From the IMG/VR virus record IMGVR_UViG_3300025687_000053, positions 1-56,828 of that record: 56,828 bases of DNA. One strand, 5' to 3'. Below the pieces are notes generated by a model that searched no databases, was not told where the DNA came from, and saw only the letters and a program-made list of their open reading frames with translations. Each line of letters starts with the position of its first letter. The stretch's first letter is position 1. Origin of the DNA: a virus. Position numbers and translations under genes: made by a program. Positions 4,428 to 37,905 of the stretch are shown here, one piece after another.

Positions 4428-4784
4428 ATGGAACGAACTAAGAAGAAATTTACCCGTACAAAGAAGGCAGATAAACCAACCTTCACCCGTACCAAAAAGA
4501 AATCTGGTTTCGTACGAACCAAGAAAAAAGAAGTACCACCCATTCAGATCCGGATTAAAGGTGAAATGACTGAGGACAGCCCAATGCCTACTGGAATGTT
4601 CAAAGGAGAGCGCGTTGGGGATATGTGGCCTGAGTATTTATATCGTATCTATAACGACGGCATGTGTACGCCTAAATTGAAACGGTACATAGAAACAAGG
4701 ATGAAAGATATAGAAGAACAAATCCAAGAAAACAAAAACAACCATAATCGGGAAATGCGTAAGTTGCGGGGAGGTAAGAAATGA
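4428..4784 (+). CDS. Tandem RTKK-tag protein with a DUF3820-like domain
   Basis: The first 34 of 118 residues are four copies of a basic motif (RTK at residues 3-5, 10-12, 21-23 and 30-32, each two places after M or F). Residues ~55-100 match the DUF3820 pattern: MFKGERVGDMWPEYLYRIY, then a helix with CTPKLKRYIE. A paralogous domain without the tags is encoded at 18946. The C-terminus is a short charged coil. The gene is preceded by ACGATAACAATG and is ATGA-coupled to the DnaC-like loader. The function of DUF3820 is not known. The multiple tags make this a candidate hub for the other tagged proteins (inference). Confidence 0.75.
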   Translation: MERTKKKFTRTKKADKPTFTRTKKKSGFVRTKKKEVPPIQIRIKGEMTEDSPMPTGMFKGERVGDMWPEYLYRIYNDGMCTPKLKRYIETRMKDIEEQIQENKNNHNREMRKLRGGKK

Positions 4785-5392
4785 GAAAACTAAGCCCTGA
4801 ACAAATACAACACAACACCAAGCAATGGGAAGACGTTTGGAAGATTCATCTGTTTAAAGAATTACAGAAAACAAACCCCCGTATATATAAGGTAATAACA
4901 GCCCCCAATTTCAAAGGCACAAAGTATAACACCATACCGACCAGCGCATATCTGTTCGGTGGTGTAGGTACTGGTAAAACGGTTGAGGCAATCTGGATGT
5001 TAATAGAGTGGACTCGTATGCGCATTATGAATAGCCAACCGATAAAAGGATTGGGCTTGTTTGTTACTTGCGAAGAATTGTTCCAATCCATACGGAACAC
5101 ATACAACAAAAAGAGTGACGTTACAGAACAAACTCTATTAGACCTTTATCAAGAAGCGGAAATGTTGGTGATTGATGATTTAGGCGTAATGAATACCAGT
5201 GATTGGACGTATAAGATACTGTACCAGATTGTTGATTACCGTTACAGCAATTTCCTGCCCACCATTTACACCAGCAATATGAGTCTGGCTGACTTGGCTA
5301 AGGTACTGGGGGATGATAGAATACCAGACAGGATACAACATGACTGCAAAGATAATATATATAATTACAAACGTAAATCAAGGAGGATGTAA
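4781..5392 (+). CDS. DnaC/IstB-like helicase loader ATPase
   Basis: This 203-residue AAA+ protein has Walker A GGVGTGKT at 60-67, Walker B LVIDDLG with D132/D133, a sensor I region YTSNMSLADLA, and an arginine-rich end (DDRIPDRIQ) typical of DnaC and IstB proteins. It should load the DnaB-like helicase (6988) at the origin marked by the O-like protein (3630). It is ATGA-coupled to the tag protein. The coding sequence ends with AGGAGG, which doubles as the ribosome binding site of the next gene. Confidence 0.88.
   Translation: MRKLSPEQIQHNTKQWEDVWKIHLFKELQKTNPRIYKVITAPNFKGTKYNTIPTSAYLFGGVGTGKTVEAIWMLIEWTRMRIMNSQPIKGLGLFVTCEELFQSIRNTYNKKSDVTEQTLLDLYQEAEMLVIDDLGVMNTSDWTYKILYQIVDYRYSNFLPTIYTSNMSLADLAKVLGDDRIPDRIQHDCKDNIYNYKRKSRRM
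5381..5386 (+). promoter_or_regulatory. Strong Shine-Dalgarno site AGGAGG
   Basis: AGGAGG lies seven bases before ATG 5394, inside the last codons of the loader gene. Strong Shine-Dalgarno sites are uncommon in Bacteroidota, and most genes here have only A-rich leaders. This site fixes the start of the next gene at 5394 rather than 5313. Confidence 0.65.
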
Positions 5393-6838: not shown

Positions 6839-6967
6839 ATGAAAACAGCTGCAATACTCTTTATCTTCCTCACATCCTGCGCCACTCTAGACAGACATTA
6901 TAATCCTGAGACGGAGGTAAAGAAGATCGAGACAAAGGAGTTCGACCAGATAATTGAAAAATTTTAA
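6839..6967 (+). CDS. Mini-lipoprotein (42 aa) with a lipobox
   Basis: The frame ATG 6839 to TAA 6967 encodes 42 residues. It starts MKTAAILFIFLTSC, a short signal peptide that ends in a lipobox (LTSC, acylated cysteine at residue 14). The 28-residue mature part is charged. Such small phage lipoproteins are known to block receptors and prevent superinfection, for example the T5 Llp type, and others act at lysis. The gene lies between the cassette-like gene and the DnaB-like helicase, so early or middle expression is expected. The superinfection-exclusion role is inference. Confidence 0.6.
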   Translation: MKTAAILFIFLTSCATLDRHYNPETEVKKIETKEFDQIIEKF

Positions 6968-26684: not shown

Positions 26685-27158
26685 TTACAAAGTGCTCACA
26701 TCAAAACATGGACACTCTTTACGCCAATCAATTTTATCAATAATCCCATCCCCATTTATATCAGGTGAAAGGTCGCGGTGACCATACAAAGGAACATCGC
26801 CTCCAGGAATCATAGCCTGCAACTTTTTAATCTCTTCTGCCATCGCCTTTTTCTGTTCAGGGGTTCTGGTATCCTTAGCCTTCCCGTGTTTGTCTAAGCC
26901 ACCCACGTAGCAGATGGCTATCGTACCTATATTGAAGTTCTCTCCACCAAACTTTTTGAAGTTAGCATGGGCTCCTTGTCTTTCCAAAGAACGACCATCC
27001 TCAACCGTGCCATCGAGCTTGATTACTTTATGGTAACCAATATCGCTGAAACCCCGTTCTAAATGCCAACGCCTGATTGTAGATGCGTCTATGTCTTTCC
27101 CTTCATGGGTTGCAGAACAATGCACTACAATGCCCACATCAATTTTTCTTTTAATCAT
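26685..27158 (-). CDS. Endolysin: N-acetylmuramoyl-L-alanine amidase (T7 lysozyme type)
   Basis: The start at 27158 (157 residues) is chosen because the frame upstream is read from the holin gene. The sequence keeps the zinc amidase site: H13 (VVHCSA), Y42 (GYHKV), H127 (YGHRDLSPDI), and K147-x-C149 near the end (KECPCF), the same K-x-C spacing as T7 lysozyme. It cuts the bond between muramic acid and L-alanine in peptidoglycan at lysis. It has no signal peptide and is ATGA-coupled to the holin, so it relies on holin pores. Confidence 0.9.
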   Translation of the reverse strand: MIKRKIDVGIVVHCSATHEGKDIDASTIRRWHLERGFSDIGYHKVIKLDGTVEDGRSLERQGAHANFKKFGGENFNIGTIAICYVGGLDKHGKAKDTRTPEQKKAMAEEIKKLQAMIPGGDVPLYGHRDLSPDINGDGIIDKIDWRKECPCFDVSTL

Positions 27159-27361
27159 TTGGATTGGTTGTTCTGTTTCTGTTTCCGTTTTACTTCCCTG
27201 TGACCTACTGCTATCATCCCCCACACGCCCAGCAGCGCCAATAGGTAATTTCCTGTCACCTCGTTGATGGCTCCTGTATTTAAAAGGTAACCAACGGTCA
27301 AGGAAGCTGTCAAGCCAATCTGTGTTTTTCGTCCATTTAACCATGCTAATGCTTTTTTCAT
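27155..27361 (-). CDS. Holin (68 aa, two membrane helices)
   Basis: The protein has a basic N-terminus with NGRKTQ, a hydrophobic helix (~13-30, IGLTASLTVGYLL), a loop, a second helix (~38-54, YLLALLGVWGMIAVG) and a lysine-rich tail (KRKQKQ). The size and topology fit a class II holin. It overlaps the endolysin by four bases and the amidohydrolase by four, forming a tight lysis cassette. Confidence 0.8.
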   Translation of the reverse strand: MKKALAWLNGRKTQIGLTASLTVGYLLNTGAINEVTGNYLLALLGVWGMIAVGHREVKRKQKQNNQSK

Positions 27362-28434
27362 ATGTTTAAGAATTTGTGAGTGTTTTCCCTTGCTATCTTA
27401 TCAAATATCTGTACACCAATTTTCCTACGCAAACCAATTGACCATTCTGCTTCCGTTGTTTCTGATAGGTTCATATACCAATCCGAGCCAAATAAAATGC
27501 GGTCATGCAAGAACTCAAATTTAGGCTCAGTCATTAAGGTAAACAAAACATCAGCCGCAAAATCTTTGTTAGCTGTAAAGCTGATGTCCATGTACACATT
27601 CTTATGGACAGCCATTATATTGATGATTTTATTTAACAGGTTGTTTTCATTACTCGGTTGCTTCAACCATTGTTCCCATTCCTTACTGCCACCAGCATGC
27701 GCCAAGCATATTTTAAGCCCCGGAAACTTAGCAGCTACCTTCGCCCAGTTGTCTGGATTCGTAAATTTATCACAATTGCCTTTCCTACCCAATTTCTTCT
27801 CATACTCATCAAACGGCAATAACAACCAATCCAATTCTGATTTACTGCCTTTGTAGTGTACGGGGTTTCCATAGGTGCAATGTGAGATGATTGGTATGTT
27901 TCTTTCTTGACACTTCTCGTAAATGTATTCGTAACGTGCGTCCTGCGGCCATGTTCCTAGCGGTGGGTACATTTTAACACCCGTCCAACCACGTTTCAAA
28001 ACAAAGTCATCAAAGAAGTTATCGCAATTCTCATCCCTGCAATCCGCCATATAAAACGGTAGTACCTTTTCGGGAAAAATTTTCCGTAAGCTATCTAATG
28101 CCAAAAGACTTTGTAAGTAGGTACGACGACATCTACCCGCACCCATATGATGCATATTCATCATTAAGGCTACGAACTTGGTCGTGCTAGGGTAGTAAGC
28201 ACGAACATCGTTAAACAATTCCATCTCGCTACCAATACGACTTGCTTTAACGAACGTCAACAGTTTATCCAACGCATCTTTGTTAGAAAATGGGTTGAGG
28301 TTATGCAGCACCCCACTAAGTAGCTTGAAACCAATCTTTGTATTTGCTATCTTTGCTAGTACTTTGTTAGGAAACCCAACTGGAATATCTAAGTGTGATA
28401 GCAGGTGCGTGTGTGCGTTTATGATTGGCTTCAT
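27358..28434 (-). CDS. Amidohydrolase-family metal hydrolase in the lysis cassette
   Basis: This 358-residue TIM-barrel protein has the complete metal-binding set of the amidohydrolase_2 group: H8 and H10 (NAHTH), possibly carbamylated K154 (GVKMY), H185 (ISHCTYG), H246 (LAHAGG) and D318 (FGSDWY). It overlaps both the spanin-like gene (adjacent) and the holin (4 bases). An amidohydrolase is unusual in a lysis cassette. Possible roles are cleaving a cell-wall amide, detoxifying a host metabolite, or an unrelated metabolic task. Substrate unknown. Confidence 0.85.
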   Translation of the reverse strand: MKPIINAHTHLLSHLDIPVGFPNKVLAKIANTKIGFKLLSGVLHNLNPFSNKDALDKLLTFVKASRIGSEMELFNDVRAYYPSTTKFVALMMNMHHMGAGRCRRTYLQSLLALDSLRKIFPEKVLPFYMADCRDENCDNFFDDFVLKRGWTGVKMYPPLGTWPQDARYEYIYEKCQERNIPIISHCTYGNPVHYKGSKSELDWLLLPFDEYEKKLGRKGNCDKFTNPDNWAKVAAKFPGLKICLAHAGGSKEWEQWLKQPSNENNLLNKIINIMAVHKNVYMDISFTANKDFAADVLFTLMTEPKFEFLHDRILFGSDWYMNLSETTEAEWSIGLRRKIGVQIFDKIARENTHKFLNI

Positions 28435-28824: not shown

Positions 28825-30068
28825 TATACTAATCCTTTAAATTTATCAACAATATATTCACGCATTGTTTTGGTTGCCCAACTTGCGTCTAGTCCTAAAT
28901 ACCCTTGAGCTGTTGCACCTACTACTGTATCAAACCAAGTAAATGTTGAATCATTTGTAATATCATCGTAAATGCTTCCTTTACCCGATTTCAAATAAGT
29001 ATTAACAGCAGCATTATGTGATTCAAATACATCAGTCAATTTAACTTCTGCATCATCCACATCAGGGGAAGTCCCGTTCATTAACATAATAGCTGCACAA
29101 TTTGATTGCAATTGGTGGAGGATGTTATCTCTGCGCCTCTGTCCCTCATCATTCTGCTTTTTGCGTGTATCGTATTTCTTTGTGGTGACTTTCTTATTCT
29201 TATGGTCATTCCCTTTTGTGTCTTTCCATGTGCGGGTTTTTTCTCGCTCTGTGATTGTTCTTGCCGCTGGTATAGGTTCACTTTCATCAGCTGTCCAATT
29301 GTGCTCAACCTTTAACACTAAAGTCCCCTTGTCGTTTTCATCCACATAGTTATGATAATATTCTACCAAACCAATTAAACCATCAACGCCAATCTGTTCT
29401 ACTTTATGCAACCTACACCCACTTTTCAAATCAGTAATATAATTAATCACCGTGTGATCCATTGAGCTGTATTGCGCCAGTTCTACAATAACCGCTTCAG
29501 CGGTACAACAAACATCTCCATCTGCTACCTCTGCTGCATAAGTACCTAGTCTTTCTATTTGTGTAGCTCTGCTAATTCTATCAATATGCGTTTTAGCATG
29601 TTCCAATTGTTTAGCTTCATCAGGGTAAATGGTATCACGTTCTGCCTTGGTTATTACGAATAACTCTGATGCCGTTTTTTGAGAAGCTTCACTCAAGTTC
29701 TCTAAGCCCTCAGCAGCAACATAAGTTTCTGCCCAGTCTCTTAATGCTAAATAGGTTAATTCACCAGCGTTACATAAATGGTACATCAAGTGTACATCCG
29801 TAACATCAGTATCACCCTCGGCTTGGAAATCGTGTTCATCATCAACCACCTTCACAATATCTTGTGTATTAAACCGTAACACCCATCTGCCACCTTCCAA
29901 ATCTCCTTTATCATCAGGTTTAATGCCCCCATGCTGTTCAAATGGCATATAGTAATAAATATCACCTAAACAAAACCTTCTCGATTGTGCTGTAAGGTTT
30001 GTAGAGTCTAAAGATTTCAAGGCTGTTATATCAGCCGAATATACGTTTGTTTTAACTGCTATTTTCAT
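28824..30068 (-). CDS. Hypothetical protein (414 aa), tail or lysis region
   Basis: The protein has no signal peptide or membrane helix. It contains a mixed beta-rich first third, a central helical region (~110-190) and a KNKKVTTKKYDTRKKQN basic linker (~280-300), and ends with TMREYIVDKFKGLV. It overlaps the 315-residue signal-peptide gene by four bases. No motif identifies it. Its position next to tail fibres and the spanin suggests a virion or host-interaction role (inference). Confidence 0.6.
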   Translation of the reverse strand: MKIAVKTNVYSADITALKSLDSTNLTAQSRRFCLGDIYYYMPFEQHGGIKPDDKGDLEGGRWVLRFNTQDIVKVVDDEHDFQAEGDTDVTDVHLMYHLCNAGELTYLALRDWAETYVAAEGLENLSEASQKTASELFVITKAERDTIYPDEAKQLEHAKTHIDRISRATQIERLGTYAAEVADGDVCCTAEAVIVELAQYSSMDHTVINYITDLKSGCRLHKVEQIGVDGLIGLVEYYHNYVDENDKGTLVLKVEHNWTADESEPIPAARTITEREKTRTWKDTKGNDHKNKKVTTKKYDTRKKQNDEGQRRRDNILHQLQSNCAAIMLMNGTSPDVDDAEVKLTDVFESHNAAVNTYLKSGKGSIYDDITNDSTFTWFDTVVGATAQGYLGLDASWATKTMREYIVDKFKGLV

Positions 30069-31012
30069 CTTGTATAGTGTTGGAGTGAAATCCTACTCAT
30101 GGAGGTCACTGTTGTTGTTATTCCTTTATTTGCATTGAATGTGATGTTGTACCCGTACCCAGTGCCCAATGGAGGAGGTAAACTAGCTCCATCGGCAAAC
30201 GTTATCAGCAAGGCTTGTTGATTTGTTCCGCTTGTAGTTCCTTCCGGCAGTACGACTGTATTGGTGGTTACGAAACCACTTAACGGGTTCTTAAGAGAAA
30301 CGTCTACCCCTACTACATCATTATTATTCTTGCCTGTATAATCAAATATCACACGCCATATATGGGCCTGTCCAGCTATTAAGTTTTCCCATACTGTTTT
30401 ATGTACACTATCCCAAATTAGTGTGTCATTAGGAAATAATATATTTTGAGGCCATTCATTTGTGGGACTTGAGGATAAGTCAAGGGCTGCCGTCCCATAA
30501 TCAACTATAGAATCCACTCCGGGCGTTAATGTAAAAGAAGGATCAACGCCACCGGAACCGTTTACTTTAACCTTGCCGTCTACCCTATTGGATAGGAATA
30601 TAGTGGTATCAAGTTTGCGTTTAAGGCTATCGCTGATTACTATTTTTATACTATCCTTTGTGTAGTAATTTTCAGCTAAATTGGTTGAGTCGTTTACAAA
30701 CCTACTGTCTAATAAAGCTAAGAATGAACTGTCACTAATAATACGATTATCAAAATATGTAATGACTTCATTCAGCCTATTGGAGTCTGCTATGATCCTG
30801 CTACTATTCAAATCAATCAATGCTTGCCAATAAGAAGCAGGTTGTCCACCAAGACTGTCAGCATTACCCACTGACCCGCCTCCACTACCGCTTACACGGG
30901 AACTATCTGCATACTCTGCCTCTGGTACGGGTGGGTCGAGGTTTATCAATGTTTGTCCAACCGCAAAATGTACGGCCAACAAAACGCCTAATATTAATAG
31001 AAACTTTTTCAT
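30065..31012 (-). CDS. Fibre-like protein with a Sec signal peptide (315 aa)
   Basis: The first 19 residues are a typical signal peptide (MKKFLLILGVLLAVHFAVG), followed by Q20, as in the Bacteroidota Q+1 rule. The mature part opens with a GSGGGSVGNADSLGGQPASYW segment, a motif common in tail-fibre stalks (A-D-S/T-L-x-G-x-PASYW). It continues with a repetitive D/S/N-rich region with many DSN spacings and ends in a beta-rich head. It is the last of four adjacent signal-peptide genes. Confidence 0.7.
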   Translation of the reverse strand: MKKFLLILGVLLAVHFAVGQTLINLDPPVPEAEYADSSRVSGSGGGSVGNADSLGGQPASYWQALIDLNSSRIIADSNRLNEVITYFDNRIISDSSFLALLDSRFVNDSTNLAENYYTKDSIKIVISDSLKRKLDTTIFLSNRVDGKVKVNGSGGVDPSFTLTPGVDSIVDYGTAALDLSSSPTNEWPQNILFPNDTLIWDSVHKTVWENLIAGQAHIWRVIFDYTGKNNNDVVGVDVSLKNPLSGFVTTNTVVLPEGTTSGTNQQALLITFADGASLPPPLGTGYGYNITFNANKGITTTVTSMSRISLQHYTR

Positions 31013-31013
31013 G

Positions 31014-31421
31014 TTAGTATTGTTTAATATTCAATATTACTTTGATTGTTCCTCCCGTCATACTATTCTTGGAAAATATGATTGGAATGTACTTAAAAGG
31101 AAGCCCATCTTTTGGCAACCCGATTGAAACATTTGCTGTATCAATAGTATACGGCAATTGTGTGCTTGGTATCTCCACATACAACTCCTGCAAATCATTT
31201 GTCTCGTAAACATTGAAAGAACCATCGGGGGTTCCCACTACATCTTTATAAATAACCTGCAAACCCATCAACGCGTCGACCTTGTATTTGCTTTCAATGT
31301 AGAACGTGTCTACAGCAGACATGGTTGATATGTCTATTTCTGTTGAACCCCTTTTTATCTCTGTTTGGCTATACGCTGTCAGGGTAAGCAGCAGTAATAC
31401 GCCCATAAATAGTCTTTTCAT
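31014..31421 (-). CDS. Small secreted protein with a Q+1 signal peptide (135 aa)
   Basis: The start at 31421 is supported by AGGAG just upstream on the minus strand and by the signal peptide that begins there (MKRLFMGVLLLLTLTAYS, then Q19). The mature ~117 residues look like a beta-sandwich (strands around TFYIESKYKV and VEIPSTQLPYTI). It lies one base from the fibre-like gene. It could be a cell-surface or fibre-tip protein. Function unknown. Confidence 0.65.
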   Translation of the reverse strand: MKRLFMGVLLLLTLTAYSQTEIKRGSTEIDISTMSAVDTFYIESKYKVDALMGLQVIYKDVVGTPDGSFNVYETNDLQELYVEIPSTQLPYTIDTANVSIGLPKDGLPFKYIPIIFSKNSMTGGTIKVILNIKQY

Positions 31422-31434
31422 GGCTTCTCCTGTG

Positions 31435-31836
31435 TTATTTGTTATACGGTATAATAGTATCCCAGCCGGAGTAAGTTTGCAGGCTGTCGATGAAAGTTTC
31501 ATATACTGGGTAAATCAATGAATCTAAGTACCCTTGCTCAAAACATAACCGCAAATTATTGACAATAGTATTTGTTCCATCTTTATAGGGTAGTACATCC
31601 CCATTTCCATTCCTTGCGGCTGTTGGGTTTATCTTACTCATCATTTCTACTGTTACACAACTATCGTTTCCAAAACCAGTAATTGCTCTAAATTGGAAAA
31701 ATAGGCTATCTGTTGATACGCCTACGTTGGTTGATACTTCGTCAAGTACTACATTCCCTTTCTGAGCAAATGTAGGTTTGTTAATCACGATTATGTTTAA
31801 CGTGATTGCTAAAATTAAAACCATTGTCTTTTTCAT
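31435..31836 (-). CDS. Small secreted protein with a Q+1 signal peptide (133 aa)
   Basis: The predicted signal peptide runs to A24 (…NKPTFA) and is followed by Q25. The mature ~109 residues contain two cysteines (SCVTVEM, LRLCFEQ) that could pair outside the cell, and an N/G-rich loop. No known family. The gene lies between two other signal-peptide genes and overlaps neither. Confidence 0.65.
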   Translation of the reverse strand: MKKTMVLILAITLNIIVINKPTFAQKGNVVLDEVSTNVGVSTDSLFFQFRAITGFGNDSCVTVEMMSKINPTAARNGNGDVLPYKDGTNTIVNNLRLCFEQGYLDSLIYPVYETFIDSLQTYSGWDTIIPYNK

Positions 31837-31882
31837 ATTGTCAAATTTTTAGTAAATATACGAATTTTAAATTTTTCTATTA

Positions 31883-33847
31883 TTACAGGGCTTTTGTTCC
31901 AGTTAATATAAACCAATTTGTTCCGTCTGAAATTATTTGATAAAAGTTTGTTCCGCCTCCGTTATCGTCGATGTATGAAGTATACCCTGCGCCTACCGTT
32001 GCGGGTGTTCCATAAATAGCGTCTAGCTCTGCATCTGTTGGCGGGTTGCTTACATCGTCTGTGTATACCTTTTGTTTAATATCCCCGCTATGTTCCATCG
32101 TACCACCGTTTTTTATAGATGTACTGTGCGAACCGTCAGAATTTTCAACATAGAACCCCGTTGTTGCGTCTGTGTTGCCGGAGCCTTTGGCGTTGAGGGT
32201 TGCTGTAAGCGTTCTTGTATTAACACCCAATTGTTTTGTTAGAAAATCACCATGAACAAGGTTGTGTTCATTATTACCGCTGCCTGTATATGCGGAAACG
32301 TACAGTTTATAGTTTTCCCCAGGAACCCCATACTGAGAACCTGCGGCCATACCCAAATAGAGGTTATAATTACCCGTTGTTTGCGTAAATGCTGTAAATC
32401 TACCAAGTGCTGTATTACCAATTCCTGATGTAATATAGCGACCTGCAATTGTTCCCACTAATACGTTACTACTACCTGTCTGAAGTCTTTCCCCTGTAAA
32501 TTGCCCTATACCTATGTTATCCGTACCCGTAGACCCTGTTGCCGTTCCGTACAATGCGCGATAGCCTATGCCTATTCCGTAATCACCCCTATTATTAACT
32601 GCTGCCTCATAGCCTAATGCAACAATATTATTACCAGTTAGCACATTACTTCCTGCATTTGCACCAATAAGTGTATTTGATCCGCCTGTGGTGACGCCAG
32701 ACCCACCAAAAGACCCAACAAAAGTATTTCCACCTCCCGTCGAATTAATGCCACCATTATACCCTATATAAGTATTATCCAATTGAGTTGTTTGATTATT
32801 TCCGGCATACCTTCCAATCAAAACAGATCGAACATCAGATGTAAGATTTTGCCCTGCCGCTATTCCAAATGTCAACGTCCCTTGCCCCTTATTAGTACTT
32901 ATGTAGTTGCTCAACATTCCGCCATCCGAAAACAATTGAAATTTATTTGCTGTTCCGGCACCATTTTTCAATGCAAAGCCTGTTGTTGAATCGGTGTTTA
33001 CGGTTAAGGTAGATTTCATGTTTACATTTACGCCATCATAAGTGAAGTTATCACTACCCTCTATCTGTCCCGTGCCGTCTAATACAGCCACCTGATTAAC
33101 GCTACCTGTTTGGCTTATGAAGTTGTCGTTCATGTACTCTCTATTCGCCTGTAAACTATCCTCCGTTTCTGTCCTTACACTATCAACCGACTGGCTTACG
33201 TATGTTTCTGAAACGCCGCCACTAAAATTAGCCAACAAGCTGTCAACATACCAACGCGAAGCATCCCAAGTGCCTGTATCTTGTATATCTTGCTTCAAAC
33301 CCAAAAGTGCTTGCATAAATAATTTTGTGTAATACTCATTGCTGTCACTCAACCATACAGGGTCTGTTTCCGTATAGCTGGTCAAGAACCCCTGCAAGTT
33401 TACCCATGCTTGGGTGGCCATTATACTATTCGTGTCTTGCCAACTCATGAACCTCGCCGTGTCTAATTTAACAATCATCCAATACGTTCCCAACCAATCC
33501 GTTGTATCACTACTGTAAACATCTCCACCGCTTGTCGCAGTTGTGTCAATGTAAATAGTATCATTCAATAATTTCCACCCGCTTTCCATCGTACACCCAT
33601 CGCAGTAATTGACAAACGTGCTATCGCGATTAACAATCTTCCAATCACTATTGGATAATTTCTGTGAGGAGGCTGCTTTATTGAGCATTTGGTATATTGT
33701 ACCTGTCTGCTCATCTTGTACCAATTTACCTGCCTTCAGCGTTCTGCCAAAAGCAGTTGTACTATCCTCTACTTGAAATACTGTCCCGTTCTGAGCCATT
33801 GCGCCCAGTGCAACGACCATCAATAAAAATGTAAGTAATTTTTTCAT
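31883..33847 (-). CDS. Large repetitive fibre/adhesin with a Q+1 signal peptide (654 aa)
   Basis: The start at 33847 (not 33880) gives a protein whose first 18 residues are a signal peptide (MKKLLTFLLMVVALGAMA) followed by Q19. Residues ~330-530 are a run of IG-x-x-A-G / NT-x-x-G repeats such as VLIGRYAGNN, NTYIGYNGG and NTLIGANAG. This matches the beta-roll of YadA-type trimeric adhesin heads. The C-terminus holds a small beta domain. It may be a trimeric fibre or an exported surface adhesin. It is the longest of four adjacent exported proteins. Confidence 0.75.
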   Translation of the reverse strand: MKKLLTFLLMVVALGAMAQNGTVFQVEDSTTAFGRTLKAGKLVQDEQTGTIYQMLNKAASSQKLSNSDWKIVNRDSTFVNYCDGCTMESGWKLLNDTIYIDTTATSGGDVYSSDTTDWLGTYWMIVKLDTARFMSWQDTNSIMATQAWVNLQGFLTSYTETDPVWLSDSNEYYTKLFMQALLGLKQDIQDTGTWDASRWYVDSLLANFSGGVSETYVSQSVDSVRTETEDSLQANREYMNDNFISQTGSVNQVAVLDGTGQIEGSDNFTYDGVNVNMKSTLTVNTDSTTGFALKNGAGTANKFQLFSDGGMLSNYISTNKGQGTLTFGIAAGQNLTSDVRSVLIGRYAGNNQTTQLDNTYIGYNGGINSTGGGNTFVGSFGGSGVTTGGSNTLIGANAGSNVLTGNNIVALGYEAAVNNRGDYGIGIGYRALYGTATGSTGTDNIGIGQFTGERLQTGSSNVLVGTIAGRYITSGIGNTALGRFTAFTQTTGNYNLYLGMAAGSQYGVPGENYKLYVSAYTGSGNNEHNLVHGDFLTKQLGVNTRTLTATLNAKGSGNTDATTGFYVENSDGSHSTSIKNGGTMEHSGDIKQKVYTDDVSNPPTDAELDAIYGTPATVGAGYTSYIDDNGGGTNFYQIISDGTNWFILTGTKAL

Positions 33848-33851
33848 AATC

Positions 33852-34442
33852 TTATTGTATAAATTGTAATTGTTCACCATCTTCTCTTGGCGTCACCTCT
33901 ACCGTATCATCGGTGACGCCTGTTATAATTGATTTAGGCTGTAACACCCCTTCCACTAAACACCGCACTCTTCCCAGTATTGGGAGGAAATCTGTGATAA
34001 CAAAATCCGTTTGTCCTGCCGTAGCTTCTAAATCTTCTTGCCCATGCAACCCGTTTCCCGCTATGGGTATGAGCGTTGCTAAAAATTGGTAGATGAGCAG
34101 TTTAGCCAAACTCGTATCACTTATAAACTCACCCGTTTCAATCAATCTCGTATCCCAACCAACTGGATCAGGAGCCACGCTGTTAGCCGTGTATACTGTG
34201 TACGTATCGTTGGTCACATAAATGTCCCCAACGCTTAACGGGTTTGCTGGTAGGCTGGTCGTGTTTCCAATTCCCAAATTCGCCACAATTGCTTTAGCTG
34301 GCAATACGCCTGCGGCAAGAGGGAAGAAGTTGGCATCTTCATCTAAATATCCGGGCACCCCCTGCGCATTGAACGTGTATGCCCTGCACCCCGTTGCGGG
34401 GTTTCTGTGTGTTCCTTGTTTTCCTAATTCTAATTGTGCCAT
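33852..34442 (-). CDS. Hypothetical tail-region protein (196 aa)
   Basis: The protein has no signal peptide. It starts MAQLELGKQGTHR and has a beta-rich middle (IYVTNDTYTVYTA) and a C-terminal region with FVITDFLPILGRVRC. The context, between a tail-tip protein and the fibre cluster, suggests a tail-tip or fibre-attachment role. No family is recognised. Confidence 0.55.
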   Translation of the reverse strand: MAQLELGKQGTHRNPATGCRAYTFNAQGVPGYLDEDANFFPLAAGVLPAKAIVANLGIGNTTSLPANPLSVGDIYVTNDTYTVYTANSVAPDPVGWDTRLIETGEFISDTSLAKLLIYQFLATLIPIAGNGLHGQEDLEATAGQTDFVITDFLPILGRVRCLVEGVLQPKSIITGVTDDTVEVTPREDGEQLQFIQ

Positions 34443-34446
34443 AGTT

Positions 34447-34779
34447 CTAAGGTATTGTGATTGTTCCGTAGCATTCTATACTACCATTTACTTGCAATCT
34501 GTATGTATTGTACGCCCAATTAACTGGGATAGTAAGTACGTCATCTTCTTCTATCAATTCCTTCACCCCTCCTATTACTTTACCATTAAGTTTAACACCA
34601 ACTCCATTCTCAGCGGGGTCTCCGTGAAACTTTCGCATAACGCCATTGCGGGCTTGATAAAACCATGTGGCATCATCTGGGTAATAAAAAGCCTGATCGA
34701 TCCAACCTGCATCGGTTGGTTCAAGGTCTTCTATCGCCTCGTAAGTGTTGGCATATATGAATCTTAAAGCTGCTCCCAT
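34447..34779 (-). CDS. Hypothetical tail-tip protein (110 aa)
   Basis: A compact beta-rich protein (RFIYANTYEAIED, then NGSIECYGTITIP) follows the large tail-tip gene with 16 bases of overlap. No motif is recognised. Its place fits a small tail-tip component. Confidence 0.55.
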   Translation of the reverse strand: MGAALRFIYANTYEAIEDLEPTDAGWIDQAFYYPDDATWFYQARNGVMRKFHGDPAENGVGVKLNGKVIGGVKELIEEDDVLTIPVNWAYNTYRLQVNGSIECYGTITIP

Positions 34780-36266
34780 TCTACTGTGTCTCCCTCAATG
34801 TTTTGGATTTGATTATTAGTTACTGAATTATTCGTAATATTCTGAATCTCTTGTTGCACTGAGAAAATACTCAGTCTAAACAGGTTTGCTAGATTAATTG
34901 GTAGTACATCACCGAACTTAATTGTGTACTGGTACGGGTCTGTAATTTTCTGTACAATTTCATTAATCTCAAAAAACTGATCAAGATTAAACTTAGTTGA
35001 TACCACTCGTATCACATCACCCACGTATAGATGAAGTCCACGTGAACGCAAGTAATCTTTATCTACTTTGGCTTCATACTGTTCTTGTGGGGTACTTACA
35101 TCATCAAGGTGCTCTTCTGTCCTTGTTTGAAGTCTTGTCATGGCTGTCGCAATATACGATTCGGGAAACGCAATATCAAATATCTTGTACGTGTCTCCCG
35201 TCTCCATAATAATCGACGTATTTGGATATTGACCCGATGGGTCTGTAACAGGTGTGAGTGTGATTTGGAAACTGTCATGGTCGTACGCTATTGAAAAGGT
35301 TTGTCCCACCAATCTACCATCCAAGAAAGTCACCTTAGCAGTTATCCCCTCTAACAAGTAATTATTAATATCAAAGTCTATGGTCTGGTCGGTGAAGGTA
35401 TGCGTATCAATCACATCAGTGACCGTACCAGTGAACTCAGGGAAGATATCATCAAACTCTACCACCGTTTCACGAACCCCATATAAATCGATATTTTTAG
35501 TTAATTTACTTTCCCCGCCGACCCCGACAAATGCCAAACGGTTTTCGGTTAACGTAGGACCGTCATAGGTGGCGCCTCCTGTATTTGTTCTGGGTGGGAG
35601 GTTCTTTGTACTACCATAACCATAAACAACCGTAAAAAGAGACGTATTATTGAGTCTCATCCTTGTTAAACTTTCGAACCCGTTCTTCATACCAACTTGG
35701 AAGACGTGGGTTGTTTGGTTTTCTCTCGCCTTAAAGTTTAAAACCCCGCCCTCTAGATACCAATTGAAACCAATCTTTTGCGCAAGTACTTGAATGGTCT
35801 CGTAGACGTTCCAATTATTGAAGTCAATAGTATACGAAGCAGTCTCCTCATAATCACCTACCGTATAATTGCCCCCAGCATTATTCAACACATTGACAAT
35901 GAACTGAAGAAATGTTTGTGCTGTGCCAGTAAGTGGGAAACGGTAATCCAAATATGAACCGCCCCCCACTTTAGGAGTCTCTAGGAATACCTTTACTTTT
36001 TGAAACTCATGTATCCCAGTTTCGAAATAACATTCATAACTATATTCTCTAGGCTTGGATAAGACTCTTGGTTGTTCGTTTAAATAGTATTGAAGCCCAT
36101 TCTTTTCGTAAATGATAAAGTCACCAATCTTTAACTCTATGAAAGTATCACTACGAAAACTCAAACGTATTCTATCCTGCAACTCTTTTTTACAAGTGTA
36201 TTCGGAGTTGTTGTCGGGTCTTACCTGAGTAACGAGTATATTATTTCTAAAGATTGAAATCAACAT
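34764..36266 (-). CDS. Tail tip / baseplate hub protein (Tal-like)
   Basis: The start at 36266 gives 500 residues. The N-terminal ~90 residues (FRNNILVTQVRPDNNSEYTCKKEL, then LKIGDFIIYEKNGLQYYLN) match the hub-like fold of phage tail-tip proteins. The middle has long beta regions and a YGYGSTKNLPPRTN segment. The end is helical. In siphophages this protein follows the distal tail protein and the tape measure, as here. No peptidase motif is seen. Confidence 0.75.
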   Translation of the reverse strand: MLISIFRNNILVTQVRPDNNSEYTCKKELQDRIRLSFRSDTFIELKIGDFIIYEKNGLQYYLNEQPRVLSKPREYSYECYFETGIHEFQKVKVFLETPKVGGGSYLDYRFPLTGTAQTFLQFIVNVLNNAGGNYTVGDYEETASYTIDFNNWNVYETIQVLAQKIGFNWYLEGGVLNFKARENQTTHVFQVGMKNGFESLTRMRLNNTSLFTVVYGYGSTKNLPPRTNTGGATYDGPTLTENRLAFVGVGGESKLTKNIDLYGVRETVVEFDDIFPEFTGTVTDVIDTHTFTDQTIDFDINNYLLEGITAKVTFLDGRLVGQTFSIAYDHDSFQITLTPVTDPSGQYPNTSIIMETGDTYKIFDIAFPESYIATAMTRLQTRTEEHLDDVSTPQEQYEAKVDKDYLRSRGLHLYVGDVIRVVSTKFNLDQFFEINEIVQKITDPYQYTIKFGDVLPINLANLFRLSIFSVQQEIQNITNNSVTNNQIQNIEGDTVEWEQL

Positions 36267-36961
36267 TATGCTGTCTCCCCTACAAACCAACATGAACTCA
36301 CTACAATGTTCCCAGTTCCGCTCAATGTTGTGTATGAAAATAAATCAATTCGTAAATCGTTTGCCGTTGCCATCCTACAATTACCATTCAACGGCACAGT
36401 CGGGGCCTGTACATCAAACGCCCCTGCTACTGCTGCCTTGGTTGCTGGCTTAGCCCATGCAGGAACGTTTGCAAATGTAATGGCGGCTACCTGTGCCTGT
36501 CCCCATATACTGAAGTCAAACTTAAAACGCCCCGTCATGAAACATACTTGGCCTTGGCGTATGAAACGTATATCACACTCGAGTACGCCCTGTGAGGGTG
36601 TTCCTGTTACATGGTAAACCTCTTGTCCTTTTTCAAGTGCTTTGCGCAAGTTATTAGCCACCACAGCATTGTCATTATCTAACGACCCTAAATTAGCCTC
36701 AGTGGCCACTCGTATGACCCCAGTTACATCCTCACTGGCTACCGTAGCTTTCAATGCCTTTGGTGTAACAACGTTTGTTCGATTGGCTAGTGTATCACCG
36801 CTGTCGTCCATAGCCCCGTCTAATAATAGTTCGGATAGTTTGACGTGTTTAGCTTCCCCAGCAGACAAGCTGCTGTCATCTACCGGAATAACAGCACTAG
36901 CAATCAAAGCTGCTAATTCTGTTATCGTCATTTTGGTTAAATCGTATGTTCTCTTTCCCAT
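36266..36961 (-). CDS. Tail fibre-like or receptor-binding protein (231 aa)
   Basis: The stop overlaps the hub start by one base. The N-terminal ~70 residues are helical with AALIASAVIPVDD, like fibre attachment domains. The middle contains ASEDVTGVIRVATEANLGSLDNDNAVV, a pattern common in tail-fibre shafts. The C-terminus is a beta-sandwich-like region ending FVGETA. A fibre or adhesin role is likely. Confidence 0.7.
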   Translation of the reverse strand: MGKRTYDLTKMTITELAALIASAVIPVDDSSLSAGEAKHVKLSELLLDGAMDDSGDTLANRTNVVTPKALKATVASEDVTGVIRVATEANLGSLDNDNAVVANNLRKALEKGQEVYHVTGTPSQGVLECDIRFIRQGQVCFMTGRFKFDFSIWGQAQVAAITFANVPAWAKPATKAAVAGAFDVQAPTVPLNGNCRMATANDLRIDLFSYTTLSGTGNIVVSSCWFVGETA

Positions 36962-36966
36962 GTTGA

Positions 36967-37905
36967 TTAATTATTAGTATTTAATGATTCCGTATTATCA
37001 ATCAATAACGACTCCGAATCGCTAATGCTTAACGTTCCAGGGGTTACCGTGATATAATTTGTCTTTGTTTCAATTGCTTGTCCTTGTTCTGTATTAAACA
37101 CAACAAGAGTGACCGTGTATGTTCCTGCTTCATTGTACGTGTGTAAGGGGTTCTGTTGATCACTGGTACTACCATCTCCAAAGTCCCAACTCCAGACCGC
37201 AACGCCCCCTGTACTATTATCTGTGAACTGAACATCTAAAAATGCTTCACCAGCTAGTACATCCGCTTCAAAGTCTGCTACCAGTACATTGACTGAGGAA
37301 TCTGTTTTATCAACGTCGATAATAATCTCTACCAAGCCGTCGGCTGTGTAATCATCTTTCGTATAGTTGCCTGAGTTACTGACATCCCCCCGATCACCGT
37401 CTCCCCAGAAGATGTTAGAACTTCTTCCCTTATCATACGTCACTGTGACTGTGTTTCCTGTGATTTGCGTGTAGTATTTAATGGCGTTAGGGTTAACGTC
37501 CCTGAATCCCAGTTTAAACACGTATAGAGAGTTCTGTAGGCGTATGTGCACCGTTGGGACGATAGTGGTAGAACGTTCAGCCAATACTGCAAATCTTTTG
37601 GTCGGGTCTGGGTCTACATCATCCTCTCTTATTGACAAGACAAACAAACCCTTATCAAACATATAACTAATCAGGTCATCTACTTTTTGACGAGCCGATA
37701 ATTGGTCACCTGCCTTTACCAAACAAAAGAAAACGAACTCATTGCTATCAAAGCGTTGGTTGGTTAACAACTTCTCAACACCAGACTTGTCTTGCCATAC
37801 CCTCGTGTCGGGACGCTCATTGGCAAATGATAGTAGACCTGTGTGGTCTAGTACCTTCACGCCGTAGGTGGCTTCTAAGTCTTTATTATCAATGTAAAAT
37901 TTCAT
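36967..37905 (-). CDS. Distal tail protein with a PKD domain
   Basis: The first ~150 residues fit a distal tail (Dit-like) protein directly after the tape measure gene. A second Ig-like segment (VTVTYDKG...FWGDGD, ~150-200) precedes a clear PKD domain (~210-290). It shows the signature WSWDFGDGSTSDQQNPLHTY, then a GTYTVTLVVFN strand. PKD domains are common in Bacteroidota surface proteins and rarer in tails. The C-terminal ~20 residues are a DSESLLIDNTES repeat. Confidence 0.8.
   Translation of the reverse strand: MKFYIDNKDLEATYGVKVLDHTGLLSFANERPDTRVWQDKSGVEKLLTNQRFDSNEFVFFCLVKAGDQLSARQKVDDLISYMFDKGLFVLSIREDDVDPDPTKRFAVLAERSTTIVPTVHIRLQNSLYVFKLGFRDVNPNAIKYYTQITGNTVTVTYDKGRSSNIFWGDGDRGDVSNSGNYTKDDYTADGLVEIIIDVDKTDSSVNVLVADFEADVLAGEAFLDVQFTDNSTGGVAVWSWDFGDGSTSDQQNPLHTYNEAGTYTVTLVVFNTEQGQAIETKTNYITVTPGTLSISDSESLLIDNTESLNTNN

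Follow-up and report, generated by a model that had tools for sequence, protein, structure and literature searches.

Assembly of tailed phages is regarded as cytoplasmic, and a run of tail-region genes whose products begin with Sec signal peptides (SPs) raises the question of where those products act. Such a run is present in IMG/VR virus record IMGVR_UViG_3300025687_000053, which was analyzed over positions 1 to 56,828 (56,828 nucleotides; hereafter the window). Four minus-strand proteins within 30065-33847, labeled A, B, C, and D, have a predicted SP followed by Gln at position +1 after the signal peptidase I (SPase I) site, a pattern referred to here as the Q-rule. The window has tail genes of the siphophage type and encodes a DNA polymerase of its own, and its terminase was nearest to terminases from phages of Riemerella, Croceibacter, and Cellulophaga. 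The gene order was tail hub (34764-36293), A-D, and then amidase (26685-27344), which places A-D between the hub and the lysis genes. We favor, with slightly better than even confidence, the reading that A-D are exported tail fibers or adhesins that are cleaved by SPase I and join the virions at or after lysis.

Signal peptides and domains of the four proteins

First, the open reading frames (ORFs) of the window were scored with a rule-based SP scorer, which uses n-region charge, h-region hydrophobicity, and the residues at -3 and -1, and ignores position +1 except for a proline penalty. Among 333 ORFs of at least 40 amino acids (aa), A-D took the first four ranks (8.13, 7.31, 6.82, and 6.70; next best 6.53). 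The highest score, 8.13, was that of D, and the weakest SP of the four was that of C, which has Lys in the c-region. Gln was at +1 in all four. The SP of A has 19 codons (30956-31012, minus strand; MKKFLLILGVLLAVHFAVG followed by QTL, site G19/Q20), that of B 18 codons (31368-31421, minus; MKRLFMGVLLLLTLTAYS followed by QTE, site S18/Q19), that of C 24 codons (31765-31836, minus; MKKTMVLILAITLNIIVINKPTFA followed by QKG, site A24/Q25), and that of D 18 codons (33794-33847, minus; MKKLLTFLLMVVALGAMA followed by QNG, site A18/Q19). A preliminary description of this DNA had proposed four adjacent proteins with such SPs and had named weak SP scores as one of the results that would speak against it; all four SPs and their cleavage sites were found in the sequence, with the four highest scores. 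Its pairing of lengths with coordinates was wrong, since the genes starting at 30065, 31014, 31435, and 31883 encode 315, 135, 133, and 654 aa, respectively.

The scorer was calibrated with a threshold of 5.8 for an SP call. In Bacteroidota chromosomes 51 of 291 genes were called, and Gln was at +1 in 51% of these. Seven of 309 genes were called in non-Bacteroidota, one of them with Gln at +1, and in six named Bacteroidota phages 4 of 359 genes were called, none with Gln. The window gave 4 calls among 68 genes, all adjacent and all with Gln at +1, which against the calibration rates is not due to chance. The scores of A-D also fell among those of Q-rule SPs from host chromosomes (median 6.95), in agreement with the earlier assignment of these SPs to the Bacteroidota type.

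The SPase I substrates of Bacteroidetes have a Sec SP and Gln at +1, which is normally cyclized to pyroglutamate, and they are not lipoproteins (PMC5837995, PMC10653852). A-D resemble them in SP, Gln at +1, and absence of a lipobox, but those substrates are host proteins. Cys was at +1 in none of A-D, so they are not SPase II substrates, and A-D had no NCBIfam or Pfam match to a type IX sorting domain. Mature A-D should therefore be soluble in the periplasm.

Protein D (654 aa; 31883-33847, minus) consists of the SP and Gln19, an N-terminal domain, a tail-fiber-like middle, and NTxxGxxAG repeats at residues 319-506, which matched PHROG tail spike and virion structural protein families. No Pfam match in D was found to the YadA-type C-terminal membrane anchor of trimeric autotransporter adhesins. 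Protein A (315 aa; 30065-31012, minus) consists of the SP and Gln20, a stalk, and a C-terminal tail-fiber tip domain at residues 130-310. By tblastn, this domain matched the C-terminal part of tail fiber AB9_050 from Acinetobacter myophage vB_AbaM_B9 (34%, E 2e-7) and a protein of Chryseobacterium phage MA9V-3 (31%, E 3e-7), both without an SP. The preliminary description had called two of the four proteins fiber-like, which holds for D and A. Protein B (135 aa; 31014-31421, minus) has the SP, Gln19, and a small mature domain; its mechanical ORF begins 27 codons earlier, and the internal ATG at 31421 is the plausible start. Protein C (133 aa; 31435-31836, minus) has the SP, Gln25, and a mature part with two Cys. 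Neither B nor C matched any Pfam, PHROG, or NCBIfam family. A search of solved structures returned nothing useful for D and nothing for A, and AlphaFold run without alignments gave models too poor for use (predicted local distance difference test score 42 for B and 39 for A).

Repeats of the D type also occur in bacterial chromosomes. Multi-copy Q-rule secreted proteins with NTFLGxxAG repeats and a conserved C-terminal segment were seen in chromosomes of Spirosoma and related bacteria (L206-L225), and phage fibers share these repeats.

Signal peptide and anchor domain in related phages

Next, a group of related phages was gathered by scans with the terminase, the hub, and a 110-aa protein; alignment A1 of the hub was set aside as a scan query because it was too diverged. 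The hub (34764-36293, minus; Prophage_tail, PF06605, E 6.7e-11) serves as the marker of this group. The 110-aa conserved tail-region protein (34447-34779, minus) lies between the hub and a putative virion-side anchor of 196 aa, which was identified by blastp, has no SP, and is just upstream of D (33852-34442, minus).

In these phages the hub and the 110-aa protein are followed directly downstream by a conserved anchor domain without an SP. The window anchor matched a 140-aa protein of G001 (blastp, E 8e-22) and residues 1-121 of a 1153-aa fiber of G002 (blastp, E 1e-8). The anchor is a separate gene in the window (196 aa), G001/L098 (140 aa), L125 (137 aa), and L246 (195 aa), and it is followed there by four, two, three, and one SP genes, respectively, all with Gln at +1. 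In G002/L099 (1153 aa), L119 (605 aa), L247 (814 aa), and L124 (at least 381 aa, cut by the contig end) the anchor forms the N-terminal part of the fiber itself, and no SP is present. SPs thus accompanied a separate anchor in 4 of 4 cases versus 0 of 4 for a fused anchor (Fisher p about 0.014). L246 and L124 were examined last, when the rule had been formed, and L246 had been predicted beforehand; both agreed with it. Two contigs end within the anchor, and L248 has no anchor homologue. The preliminary description had proposed a search for the same cluster in related phages, and Q-rule SP genes were indeed present at this locus in G001, L125, and L246.

The hub nearest to that of the window (55% identity) belongs to a phage with a fused fiber and no SP, and residues 152-275 of the SP fiber of G001 (a 961-aa ORF) were homologous to the fused G002 fiber (E 2e-10). 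A tree of 11 hub proteins was too poorly resolved for counting how often the SP state was gained or lost. G001 and L125 share the SP, about 75 residues of the mature part, and the final ~110 residues; their middle regions differ. The same SP N-terminal module was also seen behind a collar tail fiber in contigs L256 and L258, in a setting of contractile-type baseplate genes; L258 has a baseplate-hub gene. Such a docking-like N-terminal module is conserved in G001, L125, and the Cellulophaga phages described below, and none was identified in A-D. A scan of 395 Bacteroidota genomes did not return the module, but it had no positive control and is uninformative.

Several minor observations were made at these loci. 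The upstream protein ends in LPE in G001, L125, L256, and L258 and not in the window, which may be a docking motif, although this is only an idea. One Q-rule SP protein in the SP fiber cluster of L256 (5229-6167, plus) has a zincin-like motif, HELGH. A programmed frameshift joining the anchor to D was considered and rejected, as the anchor stop lies just before the ATG of D and no obvious slippery site was seen. Two SP genes of L113, with WD40-like and CBM6 domains, were left uncounted because they lie at the end of a contig and may belong to the host.

Fiber clusters of cultured phages and the competing explanations

Clusters of the same kind were found in cultured phages. In Cellulophaga phage phi10:1, gp091-gp095 are five consecutive genes at the tail-fiber position, all with an SP and Gln at +1, and the GenBank notes of gp091-gp094 mark them as virion proteins on the basis of 'experimental MS/MS proteomics' (tandem mass spectrometry, MS/MS). 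In phi19:1, gp101-gp103 have an SP with Gln at +1 and carry the same note, as does gp104, which has an SP-like start with Lys at +1. In all, seven Q-rule SP proteins of these two phages carry the MS/MS note, and an SP was present in 0 of the 18 other MS/MS-annotated proteins that were checked (8 in phi10:1, 10 in phi19:1). Similar runs were present in phi13:2, phi46:3, and Ingeline_1, which belong to other families (Pachyviridae, Duneviridae). Like A-D, all these clusters are runs of three to five Q-rule SP genes in the tail region; they encode fiber and pectate-lyase bodies, and they have no demonstrable homology to A-D. Tenacibaculum phage Larrie, also cultured, has a single fiber-like Q-rule SP protein among its structural genes (UXQ88755.1), versus the run of four in the window, and phage proteins without SPs share the C-terminal domain of this protein. 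The premise of the preliminary description that virion fibers should not need export is contradicted by the phi10:1 and phi19:1 clusters. SP fibers are not universal, since phi46:1 has an MS/MS-supported tail fiber without an SP. Within the searchable literature, which covered a minority of subscription papers, no account of SPs on virion tail fibers turned up, those of Cellulophaga phages included.

One SP together with about 15-25 mature residues was nearly identical across cultured-phage proteins with different bodies (tail fiber, pectate lyase), as expected if a docking end travels with the SP. The SP codons are under purifying selection: the ratio of nonsynonymous to synonymous change (pN/pS) was 0.16 in one fiber module, and a second showed 22 synonymous versus 0 nonsynonymous differences, summed over pairs. 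The pN/pS of a third SP module was not retained, as its rows misalign without gaps. Selection on the SP codons is well supported.

The strongest competing explanation is that A-D are exported but never become part of the virion, and act as decoys, superinfection-exclusion factors, released adhesins, or diffusible depolymerases, in the manner of the Lom-type genes of lambdoid phages. Lom of phage lambda is an exported protein from the tail-fiber region that is found in the outer membrane of lysogens and is absent from virions. It resembles A-D in its export and in where it is encoded; unlike them, it is an outer-membrane protein and is not fiber-like. The SPs of A-D are real, the D repeats are shared with host exported proteins, and some members of such clusters look enzymatic (pectate lyases; a BNR-repeat protein), all of which suits a non-virion role. 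Bacteroidota phages also encode other Q-rule proteins: the phages of Porphyromonas gingivalis have five Q-rule SP genes with no assigned function, and a modifying effect on the outer membrane of the host was suggested for them (PMC10367356). As in A-D, their SPs are predicted to expose Gln through SPase I; unlike A-D, they are not described as tail-fiber clusters or virion parts, and this was the only account of Q-rule phage proteins that we found in the searchable literature (PMC10367356). However, analogous clusters are annotated in virions through MS/MS, the SP and the anchor domain are mutually exclusive at one locus, and the SP with its N-terminal module is kept while the bodies swap, as an attachment end would be. 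On balance, we regard a non-virion role as rather unlikely. A decoy role for A-D is possible, but the earlier suggestion of decoys or exclusion factors did not gain support, since the SP replaces a virion-side domain at this locus and the tip domain of A is that of fibers without SPs.

A second explanation is that A-D are ordinary virion fibers that fold and assemble in the cytoplasm, with SPs that go unused late in infection and are kept, or lost in some other way. This would explain presence in virions without a new assembly route, and some phage structural proteins, namely major capsid proteins, score as SPs without being exported (PMC10367356). Against it, Gln was at +1 in 36 of 38 SPs over all such fiber clusters, a feature of signal peptidase that has no reason in the absence of cleavage; the count is descriptive and not a test, as it pools homologous genes and the clusters were partly noticed through their Gln. 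The strong purifying selection on the SP codons, and the related phages that dispense with the SP when the anchor is fused, also speak against an idle SP, and we judge this explanation improbable. That the phage recently captured genes for host surface proteins along with their SPs, without a settled phage function, is very improbable: the D repeats share 31-43% identity with chromosomal proteins from Spirosoma and its relatives, mostly with Q-rule SPs, but several diverged phages have this arrangement at the same locus, A has a phage tail-fiber tip domain, and A-D have a GC content (0.36-0.42) close to the phage value (0.41). Of the proposed descent from host surface proteins, host ancestry of part of D is plausible, through repeats shared with exported Spirosoma-type proteins, and recent capture is disfavored.

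The reading of A-D as exported fibers that join the virion has its own difficulties. Cleavage before Gln is predicted from sequence, and a fiber in the periplasm would have to meet a virion made in the cytoplasm before lysis dilutes them both. SP fibers are absent from many related phages, and family searches found no fiber signature in C or B. The MS/MS statement comes from GenBank notes, and secreted proteins can co-purify with virions. Moreover, apparent similarities between D and Ingeline gp31 and between A and phi10:1 gp092 disappeared under composition-based statistics and phmmer; with no homology left between A-D and the MS-detected Cellulophaga proteins after composition correction, A-D are tied to virions only through architecture and position. 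By analogy, the window proteins may behave like those of the Cellulophaga phages.

Under this exported-fiber reading, A-D would be late tail-region proteins of a lytic-looking siphophage with a Bacteroidota host. The host Sec system would export them, SPase I would cut before Gln, and the exposed Gln would probably be cyclized to pyroglutamate, as is established for SPase I substrates of Bacteroidota. D and A would replace a fiber that in sister phages stays in the cytoplasm, fused to the virion-side anchor. The exported fibers would most likely fold and trimerize in the periplasm and dock to the tail through their mature N-termini, outside the cytoplasm, as lysis mixes periplasm and cytoplasm. 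In T4, separately made fibers attach to fiber-less particles in extracts, a classical result, so docking after lysis is feasible. More generally, the chances seem about even that some tailed phages of Bacteroidota have Sec-exported, SPase I-cut, and pyroglutamate-capped fibers that join the particle outside the cytoplasm, at lysis or later, and that the SP and the usual cytoplasmic anchor domain are interchangeable alternatives. Tail fibers and Q-rule SP genes in phages are already known; the assembly route would be new if these steps hold. In that case, part of virion assembly would be extracytoplasmic for Bacteroidota phages, host-range proteins would depend on the host signal peptidase, and expression of receptor-binding proteins for study would require the mature N-terminus. 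Runs of Q-rule SPs at the fiber locus offer a simple genomic marker, and the question is directly testable with cultured Cellulophaga phages, possibly with existing mass spectrometry data.

Neighboring genes and Q-rule proteins at other loci

In the lysis region of the window, an amidohydrolase (27358-28434, minus; PF04909, E 4e-22) adjoins a small putative holin and the amidase endolysin, which is unusual company for this family. A tail protein with a phrog_6305 match (36967-37905, minus) has a C-terminal PKD domain (E 8e-18), possibly a surface-binding module at the tail tip. A 42-aa ORF (6839-6967, plus) with a lipoprotein-like start (MKTAAILFIFLTSCA) may encode a small phage lipoprotein.

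Q-rule SP proteins were also seen away from fiber loci. In Bacteroides phage p00 (L006), one with MKRFLLFFVLILGFVSATFA followed by QTG (4617-5003, plus) adjoins a gene annotated as lysin. In L257, a 140-aa Q-rule SP protein (1964-2386, plus) directly follows the putative major capsid gene, and on this case exported proteins may also be encoded in phage head regions. Roughly 4-5 kb upstream of the terminase, many Bacteroidota phage contigs encode a family of ~200-aa Q-rule SP proteins whose mature form has the conserved start QVYDGITQPT. Its members include those in L029 (6020-6619), L030 (6028-6627), L039, L049 (9025-9468), L051 (5943-6602), L062 (5899-6507), L064 (5945-6556), and L074 (5996-6610); the L064 member had no Pfam match.

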